From Gemmatimonadota bacterium (GTDB lineage: Bacteria; Gemmatimonadota; Gemmatimonadetes; Longimicrobiales; Gaopeijiaceae), in NCBI GenBank assembly GCA_003559555.1, contig PWLA01000129.1, forward strand, positions 1-39,783: a DNA stretch of 39,783 nucleotides, written 5' to 3'. Made by a program: the position numbers and the translations under genes. Below are positions 12,711 to 19,058 of the stretch, piece by piece (within the stretch, counting starts at the first letter, position 1; every line of letters begins with the position of its first letter). The notes beneath the pieces are model-generated. The model made no database searches. It saw only the letters and a program-made list of their open reading frames with translations, and had not been told where the DNA came from.

Positions 12711-14159
12711 TCACCTGAGGACGAAGACGACGGCCAGGAGCACGACGAACAAGAGGGCGAGGTTCGGCGCGATCTCCCGGGCATACCGTTCGACCGCCCG
12801 TTGGAGACGGGCCTCCGGGAGGGCTGGAAGGCCCGGGGGAGCTGGAAGGGGAACCGTCCAGCCGCTGGGAAGGGACGGGATGCGGACCGGCGGCCACGCC
12901 GGGCCCCAGCGACGCCACGTCAGATAGAGGACGGTTCCAGCACCGAAGGTGGCCACGAAGTAGGGCATGTCGGTGGGGAGGGCCGGGTGGAGGAGGGGGA
13001 GCGCGGCGATGATCAGTCCCAGCGCCGTCAGCGCCCCACCAATCTCGGAGGCGCGGGTCGCCGGATCCGGGTCCCTCGCCGGACCCAGAAAGACCTCTGC
13101 GATCAGCTTCAGGAGGATCGCCACCGTCCCCGCGGAGGCCAGAAAGAAGACGGCTTCGGCCGACGGGACTCCCTCGAGTGCGTGATGGATCTCTGCCTTC
13201 CCCGCCGAGGCCCGGAGGAGGGGGAAGCCCATGAGCGCCAGGCCCGCGAAAAGGGAGAGCGCGAAGGTCACGGGCATCGTTCGCCAGAGCCCTCCAAGTC
13301 CGGCGAGCTGGACCGTTCCGTGCCGAAGCGCCACCGCACCGACGGCCAGGAAGAGGACCGCCTTGGCCGACGCGTGCGTCATCACGTGCTGGAGGCTCCC
13401 CTCCCATGCCCCCGCCCCGATGCCGGTCAGGATCACCCCGACCTGGCTCACGCTCGACCAGGCGAGAAGCCGCTTGGCGTCGGACTGGACCAGGGCACGG
13501 AGGGCGCCGTAGGCCGCGCCTGCGAGACCCAGGGTGAAAACGGTGGCATGGAGCATTTCCGGGGTGGCGGGATCGGTCAGCACCCGGAAGATCCCGTAGA
13601 TGCCGGTCTTGATCATCACGCCGGACAGGAGTGCGCTGGCTGGAGCTGGGGCCTTCGAGTGGGCGGCGGGGAGCCAGCCGTGCACCGGAAGCATACCGGC
13701 CTTGACCCCGAACCCGAGAAGCAGGAGGACCGACCCGGGGCCGGAGGCGCCTCCCCCCCGAAGGAGGATCCCCGCCAGGAGCACGAGTCCCCCAACGAGC
13801 ATCGTCCAGAAGTAGCGGATGGCAGCTCCCCTGGCGCCGTCTCCTTGTCGGACGAGGAAGAACCCCAGGAGCGCCAGGATCTCGAAGAAGACGAAGAGCG
13901 TCAGCAGGTCTCCGGCGAACACGACCCCGAGGACCGCCCCGAGGGTGGGCAAGGCCGTGAGGAGGAAACGACCGCGCGTGCCACCCCGGCCGCCGCCGGC
14001 CGCCCTCGCGGTCCCGCCGCCGGACGGGCCTGACATTCCCCTCAGGGCAAATACGAACACCCCGATCCCGATGAGCACCGTCAACGATGCGAAGTGGATC
14101 GTGACCGAGTCGACGGTGAAGGTGAACCGGCCCACCGAGCCAGGGGTCAGAGGCGACAT
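12711..14159 (-). CDS. MnhD/NuoN-type antiporter subunit, third copy
   Basis: A 482-aa proton-conducting membrane subunit (Proton_antipo_M family). The start ATG 14159 lies one base after the stop of the preceding gene (TGAGATG), with GGAGGGTG overlapping that stop. Key channel residues are present: E93 (FVFFEILALLGF), K153 (FGVKAGMLPVHGWL), K184 (SGVMIKTGIYGIF), K266 (HASAKAVLFLAVG), and a late lysine (SAGKAEIHHALEG). The N-terminus is unusual: it lacks the first helices of its sisters and carries a Gly/Arg-rich loop at ~42-64. The C-terminus has a long Pro-rich extension (WPPVRIPSLPSGWTVPLP) and a final membrane helix. It is the most divergent of the three copies and the last gene of the operon. 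Confidence 0.88.
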   Translation of the reverse strand: MSPLTPGSVGRFTFTVDSVTIHFASLTVLIGIGVFVFALRGMSGPSGGGTARAAGGGRGGTRGRFLLTALPTLGAVLGVVFAGDLLTLFVFFEILALLGFFLVRQGDGARGAAIRYFWTMLVGGLVLLAGILLRGGGASGPGSVLLLLGFGVKAGMLPVHGWLPAAHSKAPAPASALLSGVMIKTGIYGIFRVLTDPATPEMLHATVFTLGLAGAAYGALRALVQSDAKRLLAWSSVSQVGVILTGIGAGAWEGSLQHVMTHASAKAVLFLAVGAVALRHGTVQLAGLGGLWRTMPVTFALSLFAGLALMGFPLLRASAGKAEIHHALEGVPSAEAVFFLASAGTVAILLKLIAEVFLGPARDPDPATRASEIGGALTALGLIIAALPLLHPALPTDMPYFVATFGAGTVLYLTWRRWGPAWPPVRIPSLPSGWTVPLPAPPGLPALPEARLQRAVERYAREIAPNLALLFVVLLAVVFVLR

Positions 14160-14160
14160 C

Positions 14161-15390
14161 TCACCCTCCGATTCCCCGCGCCGCCGCACGTGCGAGTGCG
14201 AGGGGGAAGCCCGGAAGCGCCGCCCCGATGCCGAGGACGATCGTGATCGCTGCGGCAGCGAGAACCGGAATCAACGTCGGGGGAGGTGGATCGACCTGCG
14301 GGCCCTCGGACGGCGGCGGGTCGAACCAGGCCGTGTGAACGATCGGCATCAGGTACAGTGCGGCCAGCAGGGCACCGGTGAGGAGGACCGTGAGCGGAAT
14401 CCAGGCCCCCGCCTGGGCCATCCCCGCCCCGATGACCCACTTGCTTACGAAACCCGAGAGGGGAGGGATTCCGATCAGGCCTAGAGAGAGGAGGGTGAAG
14501 GCCCCCATCGTCCAGGGCATCCGGCGGGCCGCACCCCCCATTCGGCTCACGTGGCGAATCCCCAGGTGATGCAGCAGGAGACCAGCGCACAGGAAGAGTC
14601 CACCCTTCATGAAGGCGTGGTGAGTGATGTGCACGATCCCCCCGGCGAGCGCCTCCCGGTCGAGCACCGAGATCGCCAGCGGGACGTAGGCCATCTGGCT
14701 GATGGTAGACCAGGCGAGGCGGCGTTTCAGGTGGTCGGTGCGAGTCGCCACGACCCCGGCCAGCACGACGGTCAGCGCGGAGACCCCGGTAAGGATCGCG
14801 AGGGGAGGCGGGTCCATCACCTGGATCAGCCGGATCATTCCGAAGGATCCCGTTGCCACCATGAGCCCCGAGAGGAGGGCGGAGATGGGCGCCGGTGCGA
14901 TGGGATGGGCCTGCGGGACCCAGCCGTGTACCGGCAGGAGTGCCGCCTTCACCGAGAACCCCGCCAGGAGGAGTACAATCCCGAGAGCCGGGACCTCGAC
15001 CCTGGTGCCGAAGCCCACGTCCCCGGCGGCAAGGGTCACGACGGCCAGCCCCAGGAGGAGCATGGCGGCGCCTGTGAGGACGTAGGCGAGGTAGCGTCGG
15101 CCGGCGGCGAGTGCCTCCGCGGTCTCGTCGTGGATGATCAGCGGCCACGCTGCGAGGGAGAGGAGCTCGTAGAACATGAGGAGCGTGAGAAGGTTGCCCG
15201 CTGTGCCAACTCCCAGCGTCAGGACGAAGCTGAGGGCGAGGAGCGCTTCATACCGGCGCCCACGCCTTGGCCCCGGGAGCACCAGGAGCCAGAGGATTCC
15301 CGCCGTCGCCGAAAAGAGGACCCCCAGTGCGTCGAACCTAAGATGAAGGCGAAGCTCCGGGACGATTTCGAAAAGGATGGACTCCATCAC
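14161..15390 (-). CDS. MnhD-type antiporter subunit, second copy, lacks TM8 lysine
   Basis: The product has 409 aa of the Proton_antipo_M family, starting by a 4-base overlap with the preceding gene. E75 (LMFYELLSLAAW), K148 (FSVKAALLPVHGWV), K262 (HHAFMKGGLFLCAG) and K317 (FVSKWVIGAG) occupy the conserved proton-path positions. At the TM8 position, where the sister copies have SGLIVKMG and SGVMIKTG, this one has SGLMVATG (A179, near 14855), so the central relay lysine is absent. The chain is shorter than a typical MnhD (about 490-500 aa), lacking one or two N-terminal helices. It may be a structural or differently gated copy. The family call is certain; its transport role is inference. Confidence 0.9.
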   Translation of the reverse strand: MMESILFEIVPELRLHLRFDALGVLFSATAGILWLLVLPGPRRGRRYEALLALSFVLTLGVGTAGNLLTLLMFYELLSLAAWPLIIHDETAEALAAGRRYLAYVLTGAAMLLLGLAVVTLAAGDVGFGTRVEVPALGIVLLLAGFSVKAALLPVHGWVPQAHPIAPAPISALLSGLMVATGSFGMIRLIQVMDPPPLAILTGVSALTVVLAGVVATRTDHLKRRLAWSTISQMAYVPLAISVLDREALAGGIVHITHHAFMKGGLFLCAGLLLHHLGIRHVSRMGGAARRMPWTMGAFTLLSLGLIGIPPLSGFVSKWVIGAGMAQAGAWIPLTVLLTGALLAALYLMPIVHTAWFDPPPSEGPQVDPPPPTLIPVLAAAAITIVLGIGAALPGFPLALARAAARGIGG

Positions 15391-16757
15391 TTCCCCACGA
15401 AGGCGGCAAACGGGCCCCCAATGATCCCCACCCCGACGGAGAGTGCGGCCAGGACGAAGATCGGGACGAGCATGACGAGAGGAGCCTCACTGGTGCCCTC
15501 CCGGTCTGCCGGGCTGGGCCGGAAGGCGACCACCACCACGAAACGTGCATAGCAGAGCGCCAGGATGACCGCCCCCAGGAGGATCATGACAGCGAACCCC
15601 CATCGCCCCGCTTCAAGGGCCCCCAGGACGATCATCCACTTCCCTGTGAACCCGCCGGTGGGTGGGATCCCGATGGCTGCGATCCCTCCAACCGCAAAGG
15701 CACTCGTGGTGAGCGGCATCGAGCGTCCGGTCCCCTCGATTCGTCTCGACCCGGCCCGGTGGATGAACGCCCCCGCCGCGAGGAAGAGGGACGCCTTGAT
15801 GATCGCGTGATTCAGGATGTGCACCGTCGCACCTGTTCGGTCGACGGCCAGCCCGAGCACGACCAGTCCGATGTTCGAGACGGTGGAATATGCCAGCATC
15901 CGCTTCAGATCGTCCTGCACCAACGCGAAGAGCGCTCCTGCCAGGAGGGAGGCTGCGCCTACCCAGATCAGGAGTTCGTGGAGGTGCTCGAGTCCGGGTG
16001 TCCGAAGCAGGCCGATGATGCCCATCTTCACGATCAGTCCCGAAAGGATCGCACTCACCGCGCTCGGCGCCGTGGCGTGGGCATCCGGAAGCCAGACGTG
16101 GAGTGGGAAGACCGCGGCCTTCAAGAGGAACCCGGCGGCCAACCCCCCGATGGCCAGGTGGAGCGGGAGACCGCCGTCGGGCAGCCGTTGGCCCACGTCC
16201 GCCATGTTGAGGCTGCCGGTGAGCGTGTAGAGGAGCCCCACCGAGAGGAGGATGACGATGGAGGCGACCGTACCCATCAGGAGGTATCGGAAGGCAGCGA
16301 GCCCTGCCCCTCGCTCCTCGCTCATCGCCACCATTCCGTAGGCCGAGATCGAGAGCACCTCGAGAAAGACGAAGAGGGTGAAGAAGTCTGCGGCCACTAC
16401 GAAGCCCATCATCCCACCTGTCCCCACGAGAATGACCGCGACCCCCTCGGGTGTGGTGACAGGTTCGTTGGAGTGGGTCGCAAAGGGCACGGCGAGGGCC
16501 GCCACGAGGGCGATTGGGACGGCGAACGTGCTCAACACGTCGAAGCGGAGCTCGATCCCGTACGGCGGAGGCCACCCGCCCACGGCGTAGGAGACGGTGT
16601 CTTCGCGGAGGAGCCCTGTGAGGAAGAGGGCCACGCCCAGGGTCGCGATGAGAACCCCGAAGCCCCAGGCCGGCGCCCATCGCCGGGACATCGTGGGCAC
16701 GAGCACGCCCCCCGCGATGGGGATCGCGACGAGCGCCGGGAGCCAGTGGGTCGTCAC
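15387..16757 (-). CDS. mnhD: MnhD-type Na+/H+ antiporter subunit, first copy
   Basis: A 456-aa multi-helix membrane subunit of the Mrp/Mnh and complex I-like Proton_antipo_M family. It is the most canonical of the three D-type copies. E133 (LFVFLEVLSISAYG) is the TM5 glutamate, K213 (FLLKAAVFPLHVWLPDAHA) the TM7 lysine, K244 (SGLIVKMGIIGLL) the TM8 lysine, K321 (NHAIIKASLFLAAG) and K373 (FTGKWMIVLGALE) the distal path. A complete half-channel for protons therefore seems present. It overlaps mnhC upstream and the second D copy downstream by four bases each, so the stoichiometry is probably set by translational coupling. Confidence 0.93.
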   Translation of the reverse strand: MTTHWLPALVAIPIAGGVLVPTMSRRWAPAWGFGVLIATLGVALFLTGLLREDTVSYAVGGWPPPYGIELRFDVLSTFAVPIALVAALAVPFATHSNEPVTTPEGVAVILVGTGGMMGFVVAADFFTLFVFLEVLSISAYGMVAMSEERGAGLAAFRYLLMGTVASIVILLSVGLLYTLTGSLNMADVGQRLPDGGLPLHLAIGGLAAGFLLKAAVFPLHVWLPDAHATAPSAVSAILSGLIVKMGIIGLLRTPGLEHLHELLIWVGAASLLAGALFALVQDDLKRMLAYSTVSNIGLVVLGLAVDRTGATVHILNHAIIKASLFLAAGAFIHRAGSRRIEGTGRSMPLTTSAFAVGGIAAIGIPPTGGFTGKWMIVLGALEAGRWGFAVMILLGAVILALCYARFVVVVAFRPSPADREGTSEAPLVMLVPIFVLAALSVGVGIIGGPFAAFVGK

Positions 16758-17104
16758 CAGCGCTTCCGCAGCTCGTCGATCTCCAGGGTCCCGAACTCCC
16801 GGTGGACCCGGAGGAGAAGCGCGAGGGCCAACGCGGTCGTGCTCACGGCCACCACGATCCCGGTGAGTACCAGAGCGTGCGGGATCGGGGCCATGAACGG
16901 GGGGGCCGCGTCGGGGCCCAGGATCGGCGCGGCCCCGCCCTCGATCATCCCCGAAGTGACGATGAAAGCGAAGACGGCCGTCTCCATGATGTTCAGCCCC
17001 ATCAGCTTCTTGAGGAGGTTCGAATCGGCAAGGACCGTCCAGAGACCGATCAGAAGGAGCACGACGGTGGCCGCGTAGTCCAGGTTCTCGAGAAGGGGTG
17101 TCAC
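16754..17104 (-). CDS. mnhC: MnhC/NuoK-type antiporter subunit
   Basis: A 116-aa protein with three membrane helices, homologous to MrpC/MnhC, MbhG and NuoK. MGLNIMETAVFAFIV and PIPHALVLTGIVVAVSTTALALAL match the family's G-x-x-x-x-E and 'PxPxALVLTxIV' blocks. The second helix carries the conserved glutamate (E41 in the NIMET string) used in NuoK-type proton transfer. A short Pro/Ala-rich loop (GGAAPILGPDAAPPF) separates helices 2 and 3. It overlaps its neighbours by ATGA on both sides. Confidence 0.93.
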   Translation of the reverse strand: MTPLLENLDYAATVVLLLIGLWTVLADSNLLKKLMGLNIMETAVFAFIVTSGMIEGGAAPILGPDAAPPFMAPIPHALVLTGIVVAVSTTALALALLLRVHREFGTLEIDELRKRW

Positions 17105-17778
17105 GCGTCCTCCAGCGCCAGGTACAGGCGGCTGAAGATGAGGGCGCCCCCGATCCCGATCCCGAGCTCCACCCCCATCAGCATCGCCTCATGGAGAAGC
17201 GGGAGGTGCGTCGGGTATCCCAGGGCGAACCCGGTGGCAATCCCCCCCACGATACCGGCGGCCAGGAACGCGAGGGGACCTGCCCCCTGAAGCCACGGAA
17301 GGAGCCGCCCCGGGAGGAGACTTCGGGCATGCTGCGGGCCGAACACGAACCCGTTCAGGATGACGAGCCCCCCAAGGATCGCGGCACCCTGGAGCCCTCC
17401 TCCGGGGACCTCGAGTCCGGACAGGATCACGTGGAACCCGAAGAGGGCGATGAAGGGCGTGACGAGGCGGACGATAAAGGCCACGATCGGGCTCGGTGAC
17501 GCGGCCGGCAACGCGGGCTCGCGGTGCCTGGCGAGGACGAGGACGGCAACCAGGCCGACGAAGATCACCACAACCTCCCCGAAGGTGTCCATCCCGCGGT
17601 AATCCAGGAGGATCGCGGTCACCAGGTTGCCCGTCTCCGGTCCCGACTCGATGTACTCCCGGGCGACGTGCGTGTGGATCGGCTGATCCGGGGAGCCGTG
17701 CCTGGGGAGCGCGGCCATCGCCGCGAGCATGGGAACCGCGAGTCCCGTGACGAAGGCGGCAGCGAGCCGCGGGTTCAT
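17101..17778 (-). CDS. mnhB: MbhE-MnhB fusion antiporter subunit
   Basis: A 225-aa membrane protein that joins two normally separate subunits. Residues 1-85 are the MbhE/MrpA-C-terminal domain, identified by ETGNLVTAILLDYRGMDTFG, whose motif is diagnostic. Residues ~95-225 are MnhB/MbhF: HVILSGLEVPGGGLQGAAIL corresponds to the canonical 'GHxxPGGGFxGG' and is followed by three more helices. The linker (REPALPAASPSP) is short. In Mbh hydrogenases these are MbhE and MbhF, adjacent genes in the same order, so this is a natural fusion of neighbours. The subunit sits between the DUF4040 gene and mnhC with four-base overlaps. Confidence 0.92.
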   Translation of the reverse strand: MNPRLAAAFVTGLAVPMLAAMAALPRHGSPDQPIHTHVAREYIESGPETGNLVTAILLDYRGMDTFGEVVVIFVGLVAVLVLARHREPALPAASPSPIVAFIVRLVTPFIALFGFHVILSGLEVPGGGLQGAAILGGLVILNGFVFGPQHARSLLPGRLLPWLQGAGPLAFLAAGIVGGIATGFALGYPTHLPLLHEAMLMGVELGIGIGGALIFSRLYLALEDA

Positions 17779-18008
17779 CGGGAAGTCCGGGCGATGACCA
17801 CGAGGAAGAGCAGCGTCGTGACTCCGGCTCCCACCGCGGCCTCGGTGAGAGCGACATCGGGGGCGCCCCGGTGCAGCCAGAGCAGACAGAGCATGAGGCT
17901 GTAGGCGGCGAAGAGGATGGCGGCCGCCGCCAGGTCCCGGGCCCGGGCCACCGCCAGCGCCGTGAGAATGAGGAGGGTGAGGAGGACCACGTCGAACAGT
18001 TCGCTCAT
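17775..18008 (-). CDS. DUF4040 antiporter subunit (MbhD-like)
   Basis: A 77-aa protein of three short membrane helices. I chose ATG 18008 because it overlaps mnhG by four bases and begins at the conserved N-terminus; longer starts add Arg/Pro-rich sequence. RGAPDVALTEAAVGAGVTTL is the DUF4040 signature, equal to MbhD in membrane-bound hydrogenase and to the penultimate part of MrpA. It stands alone here instead of being fused to a large NuoL-type domain, which is the Mbh-style arrangement. Confidence 0.9.
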   Translation of the reverse strand: MSELFDVVLLTLLILTALAVARARDLAAAAILFAAYSLMLCLLWLHRGAPDVALTEAAVGAGVTTLLFLVVIARTSR

Positions 18009-18304
18009 GGGTCGTCCGTTGTCCAGGGTGCGACCCCTCTCCGGTCCGCTGCCCGGGCGAGGGCGTGGCTGGCGGTCGGACCGGCGATGAGGATCAGGAT
18101 CGCCAGGCCCAGGAGCTGGAAGCTCGCGAGGCCCGGGCACAGGGCGAAGGCGAGTGCGAGGAGTATCGACCCCGCCCCCACCGTGTCGCACTTTGCCGCC
18201 GCATGGGCGCGGGAGTAGAAGTCGGGAAGGCGGAGAAGCCCGATCGTGGCGGCTAGAAAGAAGAAGGCGCCGATGAGACCGAAGGGGATGGCCAGCAGGC
18301 TCAC
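18005..18304 (-). CDS. mnhG: MnhG-type antiporter subunit
   Basis: A 99-aa protein with three membrane helices, MrpG/MnhG/PhaG family (MbhC in hydrogenase). IGLLRLPDFYSRAHAAAKCD followed by TVGAGSILLALAFAL is the family hallmark (RLPDxYxRxHAxxKxDTxG). The tail (ARAADRRGVAPWTTDDP) is hydrophilic. The role in the Mrp complex is structural, next to subunits E and F. It overlaps mnhF and the DUF4040 gene by ATGA. Confidence 0.93.
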   Translation of the reverse strand: MSLLAIPFGLIGAFFFLAATIGLLRLPDFYSRAHAAAKCDTVGAGSILLALAFALCPGLASFQLLGLAILILIAGPTASHALARAADRRGVAPWTTDDP

Positions 18305-18567
18305 GGGTCCAGCCTCCCGCTCTCCAACAACCGGCTGGCGGCCAGGCTCACTCCGAAGCTCAGGAGCCCATAGACGAAGGCGACGGTGAAGAAGATCTCC
18401 CGTCCGAATACGAAGCCCAGGAGGACGAGCACGACGAGTGTCTTCATGGCGAGCACGTTCACGGCCAGGATCCGATCCATGAGCGTGGGGCCGACCCGTG
18501 CCCGCTGGAGGCAGGCGAAGGCGTTCAGGAGGAGAAAGATTGCGAGCCCCCAGAAGAAGGTGGTCAT
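18301..18567 (-). CDS. mnhF: MnhF-type antiporter subunit
   Basis: An 88-aa protein with three membrane helices, MrpF/MnhF/PhaF family (MbhB). The start ATG 18567 overlaps the mnhE stop by four bases; an upstream in-frame methionine would add 26 non-conserved residues. ARVGPTLMDRILAVNVLAMK is the conserved 'GPTxxDRIxAxNxxxxK' block, with the acidic residue D (in MDR) in the membrane region. Confidence 0.93.
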   Translation of the reverse strand: MTTFFWGLAIFLLLNAFACLQRARVGPTLMDRILAVNVLAMKTLVVLVLLGFVFGREIFFTVAFVYGLLSFGVSLAASRLLESGRLDP

Positions 18568-19058
18568 GGGGTCTTCCCCTCGAACACCCGGGCGACCCGC
18601 TCCTCCAGGCGCTGAACCTGCTCCCCGAACCTCGGCTCCAGGCAATGGATGCGAAGCTCCGAGCCTGCCAGGTCCACCGTCAGGGTTCCAGGCGTGAGGG
18701 TGAGCGAGTTCGCCAGCGCCACACGGGAGATCTCACGGGTCAGAGTGGTGCGATGGATGATGGTGACCGGCTTGACGGGAAGCCGAGGGTCCAGCACCAG
18801 CCGGGCCACATGGAAGGCGGCCGCCGTGATGAGGAGGGCGAGCTGGACCAGGTAGAGGAGGAGGGCGGCGCCTTGCCTGGCGCTGATGGCGGGGACCTCG
18901 GTGGTGCGGAACGCCCGGTTCGCAACCACTCCCAACCCGAGGGAGAGGCTTGCCCCGAGGGCGAGATCCCACGGATGGAAGGACCCGGAGAGGATGAGCC
19001 AGAAGAGGAACAGGAAGATCGCCGAGGGGATGACCCTGCCATGGCGCGATTTCGGCAT
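18564..19058 (-). CDS. mnhE: MnhE-type antiporter subunit, operon leader
   Basis: A 164-aa protein of the MrpE/MnhE/PhaE family (MbhA). I chose ATG 19058, preceded by AGGGAAGG. Two hydrophobic helices (FLFLFWLILSG and GAALLLYLVQLALLITAAA) are followed by a cytoplasmic domain with the typical PVKPVTIIHRTTLTREISR and NSLTLTPGTLTVDL signatures. It is the first gene of the nine-gene operon. The promoter is not obvious in the 273-bp divergent gap to the SDR gene. Confidence 0.93.
   Translation of the reverse strand: MPKSRHGRVIPSAIFLFLFWLILSGSFHPWDLALGASLSLGLGVVANRAFRTTEVPAISARQGAALLLYLVQLALLITAAAFHVARLVLDPRLPVKPVTIIHRTTLTREISRVALANSLTLTPGTLTVDLAGSELRIHCLEPRFGEQVQRLEERVARVFEGKTP

Follow-up and report, generated by a model that had tools for sequence, protein, structure and literature searches.

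The operon lies on the minus strand at positions 12711-19058 of a 39,783-nucleotide stretch of contig PWLA01000129.1 (hereafter, the window) from a Gemmatimonadota bacterium, and its gene order is E-F-G-MbhD-(MbhE+MnhB)-C-D1-D2-D3. A Pfam search matched all nine gene products to their own families above cut-off, i.e., MNHE, MrpF_PhaF, PhaG_MnhG_YufB, MbhD, MbhE plus MnhB, Oxidored_q2, and three times Proton_antipo_M. The first gene (18564-19058, ATG at 19058) encodes an MnhE/MbhA-like subunit of 164 aa (PF01899, 93 bits) and shares an ATGA overlap with the F gene (18301-18567, start at 18567), which encodes an MnhF/MbhB-like subunit of 88 aa (PF04066, 46 bits). These are followed by an MnhG/MbhC-like subunit (18005-18304; PF03334, 83 bits, with TIGR01300 also above cut-off), an MbhD/DUF4040 subunit (17775-18008, ATG at 18008; PF13244, 72 bits), which is a homologue of part of the MrpA C-terminal domain, an MbhE-MnhB fusion of 225 aa (17101-17778; PF20501 and PF04039), and a NuoK-like MnhC/MbhG subunit (16754-17104; PF00420). 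The last three genes encode antiporter-like subunits with PF00361 matches: MrpD-type MnhD1 (D1; 15387-16757, 456 aa, 196 bits), MnhD2 (D2; 14161-15390, 409 aa, 167 bits), and distal-type MnhD3 (D3; 12711-14159, 482 aa, 153 bits). Seven of the eight junctions (E/F, F/G, G/MbhD, MbhD/EB, EB/C, C/D1, and D1/D2) are 4-bp ATGA or GTGA overlaps, and D2 and D3 are separated by a 1-bp gap, with a GGAGG-like site 5' of the D3 start (ATG at 14159). The Pfam matches and junction sequences thus bear out the nine-gene order and the seven overlaps described in an earlier note on this DNA. A promoter and terminator scan gave nothing above chance.

One flank of the operon holds a gene for a DUF6498 protein and an unassigned 200-aa ORF, the other a divergent SDR gene; among the window genes and scanned flanks, no redox gene was found inside or adjoining the operon. 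These non-redox neighbors agree with the earlier observation that no hydrogenase, NADH dehydrogenase, or redox subunit follows the third MnhD. Likewise, neither a [NiFe] hydrogenase module (MbhJ-N) nor the NuoA-I peripheral and quinone modules of respiratory complex I lie in the operon or beside it, and the NuoL/M/N-type genes of the organism's complex I sit elsewhere, on contig C295. Group 1/2 Mrp is marked by an MrpA that joins a NuoL-like N-terminal domain to an MbhD/MbhE-like one; the operon lacks such an MrpA, and its MbhD and MbhE parts lie in other genes. In the organism's own assembly (3.5 Mb, 90% complete), no TIGR00940 match at E ≤ 1e-100, and hence no MrpA, was found; across the phylum, an MrpA-like match at this threshold was present in just 6 of 200 genomes. 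Together with the Pfam matches, the own-genome PF00361/TIGR00940 search confirms an Mbh-like gene order without MrpA. The 14 PF00361 proteins of the genome comprise NuoL/M/N of complex I and 11 D-type proteins, three from the window operon and eight from other loci: C160 carries MbhD-MbhE-MnhB-C-D-D-D, its upstream part being cut by the contig end, C219 carries a complete second E-to-DDD operon, and C163 carries D1 and D3 of the C219 type. The C219 operon (L016, 3-13555), whose D3 has Ala at GluTM5, lies directly after genes for NuoF, a formate dehydrogenase alpha subunit, and formate-THF ligase. A coupling of this operon to formate dehydrogenase was considered and rejected, as the neighborhood is not conserved in the relatives searched.

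The gene set itself is not new; it is of a known kind, group 3 Mrp, defined by the absence of mrpA and sometimes several mrpD (PMC8415708). The window operon has three D genes, none of them in the MrpA/NuoL clade, and unites E, F, G, B, and C in one operon. In vivo tests of the MrpA-less Mrp of P. furiosus identified Na+ as coupling ion (PMC8415708), MrpBCDEFG is reported to be over-represented in SG8-23, a saline order of Gemmatimonadota (PMC9426454), and a haloalkalitolerant Nitrospira has a group 3 Mrp plus two further D-like genes (PMC7784846). Plasmid NZ_CP119800 of the haloarchaeon Halomontanus rarus carries E-F-G-DUF4040-MnhB-C-D-D-D, which confirms the likeness to haloarchaeal multi-MnhD operons named in the earlier note, and E-F-G..C-D-D-D was found on a Rhodobacteraceae plasmid and in 11 of the 14 Gemmatimonadota type I (C160-type) loci fetched, the remaining three, C160 included, being cut by contig ends. 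Of 96 genomes of the bacterial family, 71 had a match to the type I D3 (NF009310) at E ≤ 1e-100, 67 of them above its cut-off. The extra D channels that the earlier note proposed as replacing MrpA are no innovation of this lineage: operons with the E..D-D-D set turn up repeatedly in the family, and the published definition of group 3 Mrp covers several mrpD in the absence of mrpA (PMC8415708). With the group 3 systems of P. furiosus (EFGBB'CD), 'Ca. N. alkalitolerans', and Halomontanus rarus, the window operon shares the absence of MrpA and of redox genes, the E-F-G-B-C-D order, and separate MbhD/MbhE/MnhB domains, and with the last also D-D-D; it differs in that D2 and D3 lack TM1-2, D3 lacks the long lateral arm, and MbhE is fused to MnhB. 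The membrane module of P. furiosus MBH (MbhA-H) matches the window operon in subunit types and in their order as far as C-D, but it has a single MbhH in contrast to three D subunits, and the window operon lacks its hydrogenase genes.

For the D subunits, we calculated a quick tree with SH-aLRT support (values marked by an asterisk). D1, D2, and D3 formed separate groups (D2 100*, D3 97*), each with archaeal, alphaproteobacterial, actinobacterial, and gemmatimonadotal members; D1 grouped with MrpD, and MrpA and NuoL formed a fourth group (98*) that excludes D2 and D3. Because each D group holds both archaeal and bacterial members, the three subunits belong to a standard set of ancient origin and did not arise in this lineage as substitutes for MrpA. 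This is the outcome that the earlier note had named as refuting its own idea, i.e., that extra D-type channels take the place of the missing MrpA channel. The absence of MrpA and the presence of three D genes would fit an addition of D subunits in this lineage to replace a lost MrpA; however, the divergence of D1, D2, and D3 predates that of the bacterial and archaeal operons, and the nearest relatives carry more D genes, not fewer, making such an addition highly improbable. A lineage-specific duplication of D is rejected by the same tree. In the rhizobial 'green' complex I, two MrpD-like subunits replace NuoL (PMC9040806), and those of S. meliloti (pSymA) fall into the D2 and D3 groups, which suggests that D2 and D3 take the place of MrpA-N or NuoL; the rhizobial subunits, in contrast, are part of a redox-driven NADH dehydrogenase.

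Within its phylum, the window operon represents a third operon type, detected in three genomes only, all of one genus. The best relatives are the MAGs CSSed162cmB_156 (71% D3 identity) and CSSed11_55, apparently soda-lake MAGs by their names, the CSSed datasets being from sediment of Cock Soda Lake, one of the Siberian soda lakes of pH 10 (PMC6146748). Both were found in a separate search and did not show in a draw of 395 genomes of the phylum, in which a search at E ≤ 1e-36 yielded no further close D3 and the six weaker matches came from Hyf-like or other loci. The nearest operons outside the phylum, from Coriobacteriia, Wenzhouxiangella, Desulfurivibrio, and Gammaproteobacteria, carry four D subunits (D1-D2a-D2b-D3). 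Those of the first three, ordered E-F-G-MbhD-EB-C-D1-D2a-D2b-D3, are the closest outside the genus for every subunit compared and share the MbhE-MnhB fusion and an Ala at TM8 of D2b, but have the additional D2a. The window D2 belongs to the D2b clade (100*), and in a concatenated tree the gemmatimonadotal operons are nested among the four-D operons (branch 87/100); holding the four-D operons together lowered the log-likelihood by 28.9, and this alternative to nesting was not rejected (AU p = 0.15). Because of the nested position, we favor a loss of D2a, which probably occurred in the window lineage. With one D fewer and shortened subunits compared to the nearest homologues, reduction is a better reading than addition.

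The number of D subunits varies among related operons (three, four, and probably five), and several other loci with multiple D-type subunits came to our attention. In a Methanocellales MAG (L104:25-9758), MbhD-MbhE-B-C precedes five D-type genes (D1-D2-D2-D2-D3), of which the contig end truncates the last. The MAG STD1_102 (L127:5341-16710) has NuoJ-NuoK-D2-D2-D2-D3-NuoM-NuoN, a complex I operon that holds six antiporter-like subunits; L129 and L130 have five, and L114 and L117 resemble these loci but are broken or cut. In 2022, a complex I with five such subunits was called unique (PMC9040806). In methanogen-related loci (L099:7755-10331; L100:7755-10253), the C-terminal arm of D3 contains internal repeats of ~26 residues (self-match peaks at shifts of 25-26), the same length as the extra lateral-helix insert of PMC9040806. 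Some actinobacterial four-D operons carry a gene for a protein with a C-terminal 4Fe-4S domain near D3, either directly downstream or some kb off (L070:10494-11336; homologues in L072, L076, L077, L078, L080, L081, L082, L088, and L068).

TM1-2 are present in the window D1, and both D2 and D3 begin at TM3. The same TM3 starts were found in CSSed162cmB_156 (L067), and CSSed11_55 (L094) has full-length D2 and D3. Mis-called starts were rejected as an explanation, as the stop-to-stop frames span only 441 and 519 codons and the L067 starts are identical. AlphaFold models bear out the TM3 starts. That of D2 (pLDDT 91) begins with a hairpin before TM3 and aligned in Foldseek to MrpD of 7qru with a TM-score of 0.90 by query length. 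In the D3 model (pLDDT 81), residues 428-447 score below 50 and are followed by a single helix (449-481), i.e., the lateral-helix arm is reduced to a short disordered linker and the last TM helix. From the TM12 Lys of D3 to its end there are 162 residues in the window; CSSed11_55 has 257, and most four-D operons have about 395-528. This arm loss is seen in one sequence, as the L067 contig ends inside D3. Arm lengths ranged from 228 to 342 in three-D operons (median 254) and reached a maximum of 528 in four-D operons (median 468), with L095 and L097 counted automatically as four-D although they hold a second D3. A simple ruler, with longer D3 arms where an operon has more D subunits, was judged suggestive only, given the outliers L110, L119, and L125 (long) and L144 (short). 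The only precedent we found for such trimming is the loss of TM1-3 in metazoan ND2 (PMC13073174).

Alignments showed that GluTM5, LysTM7, and LysTM12 are intact in D1, D2, and D3, with D1 retaining the full E/K/K/K set, and that in all aligned operons of the window type, D2 has Ala in place of LysTM8. Asn occupies the LysTM7 position in some type I D3 proteins, that of the haloarchaeon among them (L015:1987-3732; L049:10527-12323). The MbhD motif PDVALTEAAVGAGVT lies at the position of MrpA DLALTQxxVE and reads TEAAVG where MrpA has TQxxVE, and window-type MnhC has a Glu in its GLNIMETAVF motif. Both proteins lack residues conserved at the group 1 Mrp cation site and have Glu nearby. By these alignments, the site residues of C and MbhD are MBH-like, and ion and site may therefore differ from those of group 1 Mrp; Na+ is the candidate favored on habitat grounds.

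Taken together, we consider the operon to encode a stand-alone group 3 (MrpA-less) Mrp-type antiporter of a haloalkaline Gemmatimonadota bacterium, with a probability of about 0.72. PMF-driven Na+(K+)/H+ exchange would be its most likely function. We infer that the nine products form one complex, as well as subunit positions, transport direction, and ion. E, F, G, MnhB, C, and MbhD/MbhE would make up the cation-translocating module, with D1, the MrpD equivalent, adjoining C, and D2 and D3 extending the proton-conducting row outwards into the place occupied elsewhere by MrpA-N or NuoL. By analogy with the Mrp structure (PMC7419157), protons would pass through the D row, with the exchange against a cation taking place at the C/MbhD/D1 interface; proton entry through the D subunits would expel Na+ (or K+) and keep the cytoplasm less alkaline and less salty. 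The redox-independent antiporter of the earlier note is retained here as regards the missing MrpA and the absence of a redox module in or beside the operon; an addition of D channels in this lineage to replace MrpA is contradicted by the D tree.

Two points speak against the antiporter: the cation-site residues differ from group 1 Mrp, and the shortening of D2 and D3 could mean decay. The MBH-type sequences of MbhD, MbhE, and C would also suit a redox-driven pump of the Mbh, Fdh, or complex I kind, with its membrane arm encoded here and its electron-transfer subunits elsewhere, as would the 4Fe-4S protein gene of some actinobacterial relatives and the NuoF/FdhA/FTHFS genes beside the C219 operon. 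However, we regard such a pump as unlikely: no redox gene adjoins the window operon or lies in the scanned flanks of the Wenzhouxiangella, Desulfurivibrio, and congeneric loci, the C219 neighborhood is not conserved in the relatives searched, and the 4Fe-4S protein has no homologue among the window ORFs. With other DDD operons in the genome, the window copy could instead be a decaying paralogue with little activity left, in which one D subunit, helices, and the lateral arm are being lost, in line with two subunits without TM1-2, the reduced arm, and the probable loss of D2a. Against this, the truncations are common to two species with about 70-75% identity, every reading frame is intact, the 4-bp overlaps are tight, and the key Lys/Glu residues are retained, so that decay, too, appears improbable.

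In addition to the antiporter assignment, we tentatively propose a functional Mrp complex derived from a four-D ancestor, in which TM1-2 are dispensable for two of the three antiporter-like subunits, and a lateral helix for the end subunit; we hold this as possible, with the odds against it. The gene set is ordinary, and the operon is a new reduced variant in detail. If the proposal is true, the complex would be a natural minimal version testing which parts of the complex I/Mrp fold ion translocation needs, and its activity would limit the possible coupling roles of TM1-2 and the lateral helix, a matter of debate for complex I. As this operon shows, the row of proton channels in Mrp and complex I has no fixed length, and individual channels can be shortened.
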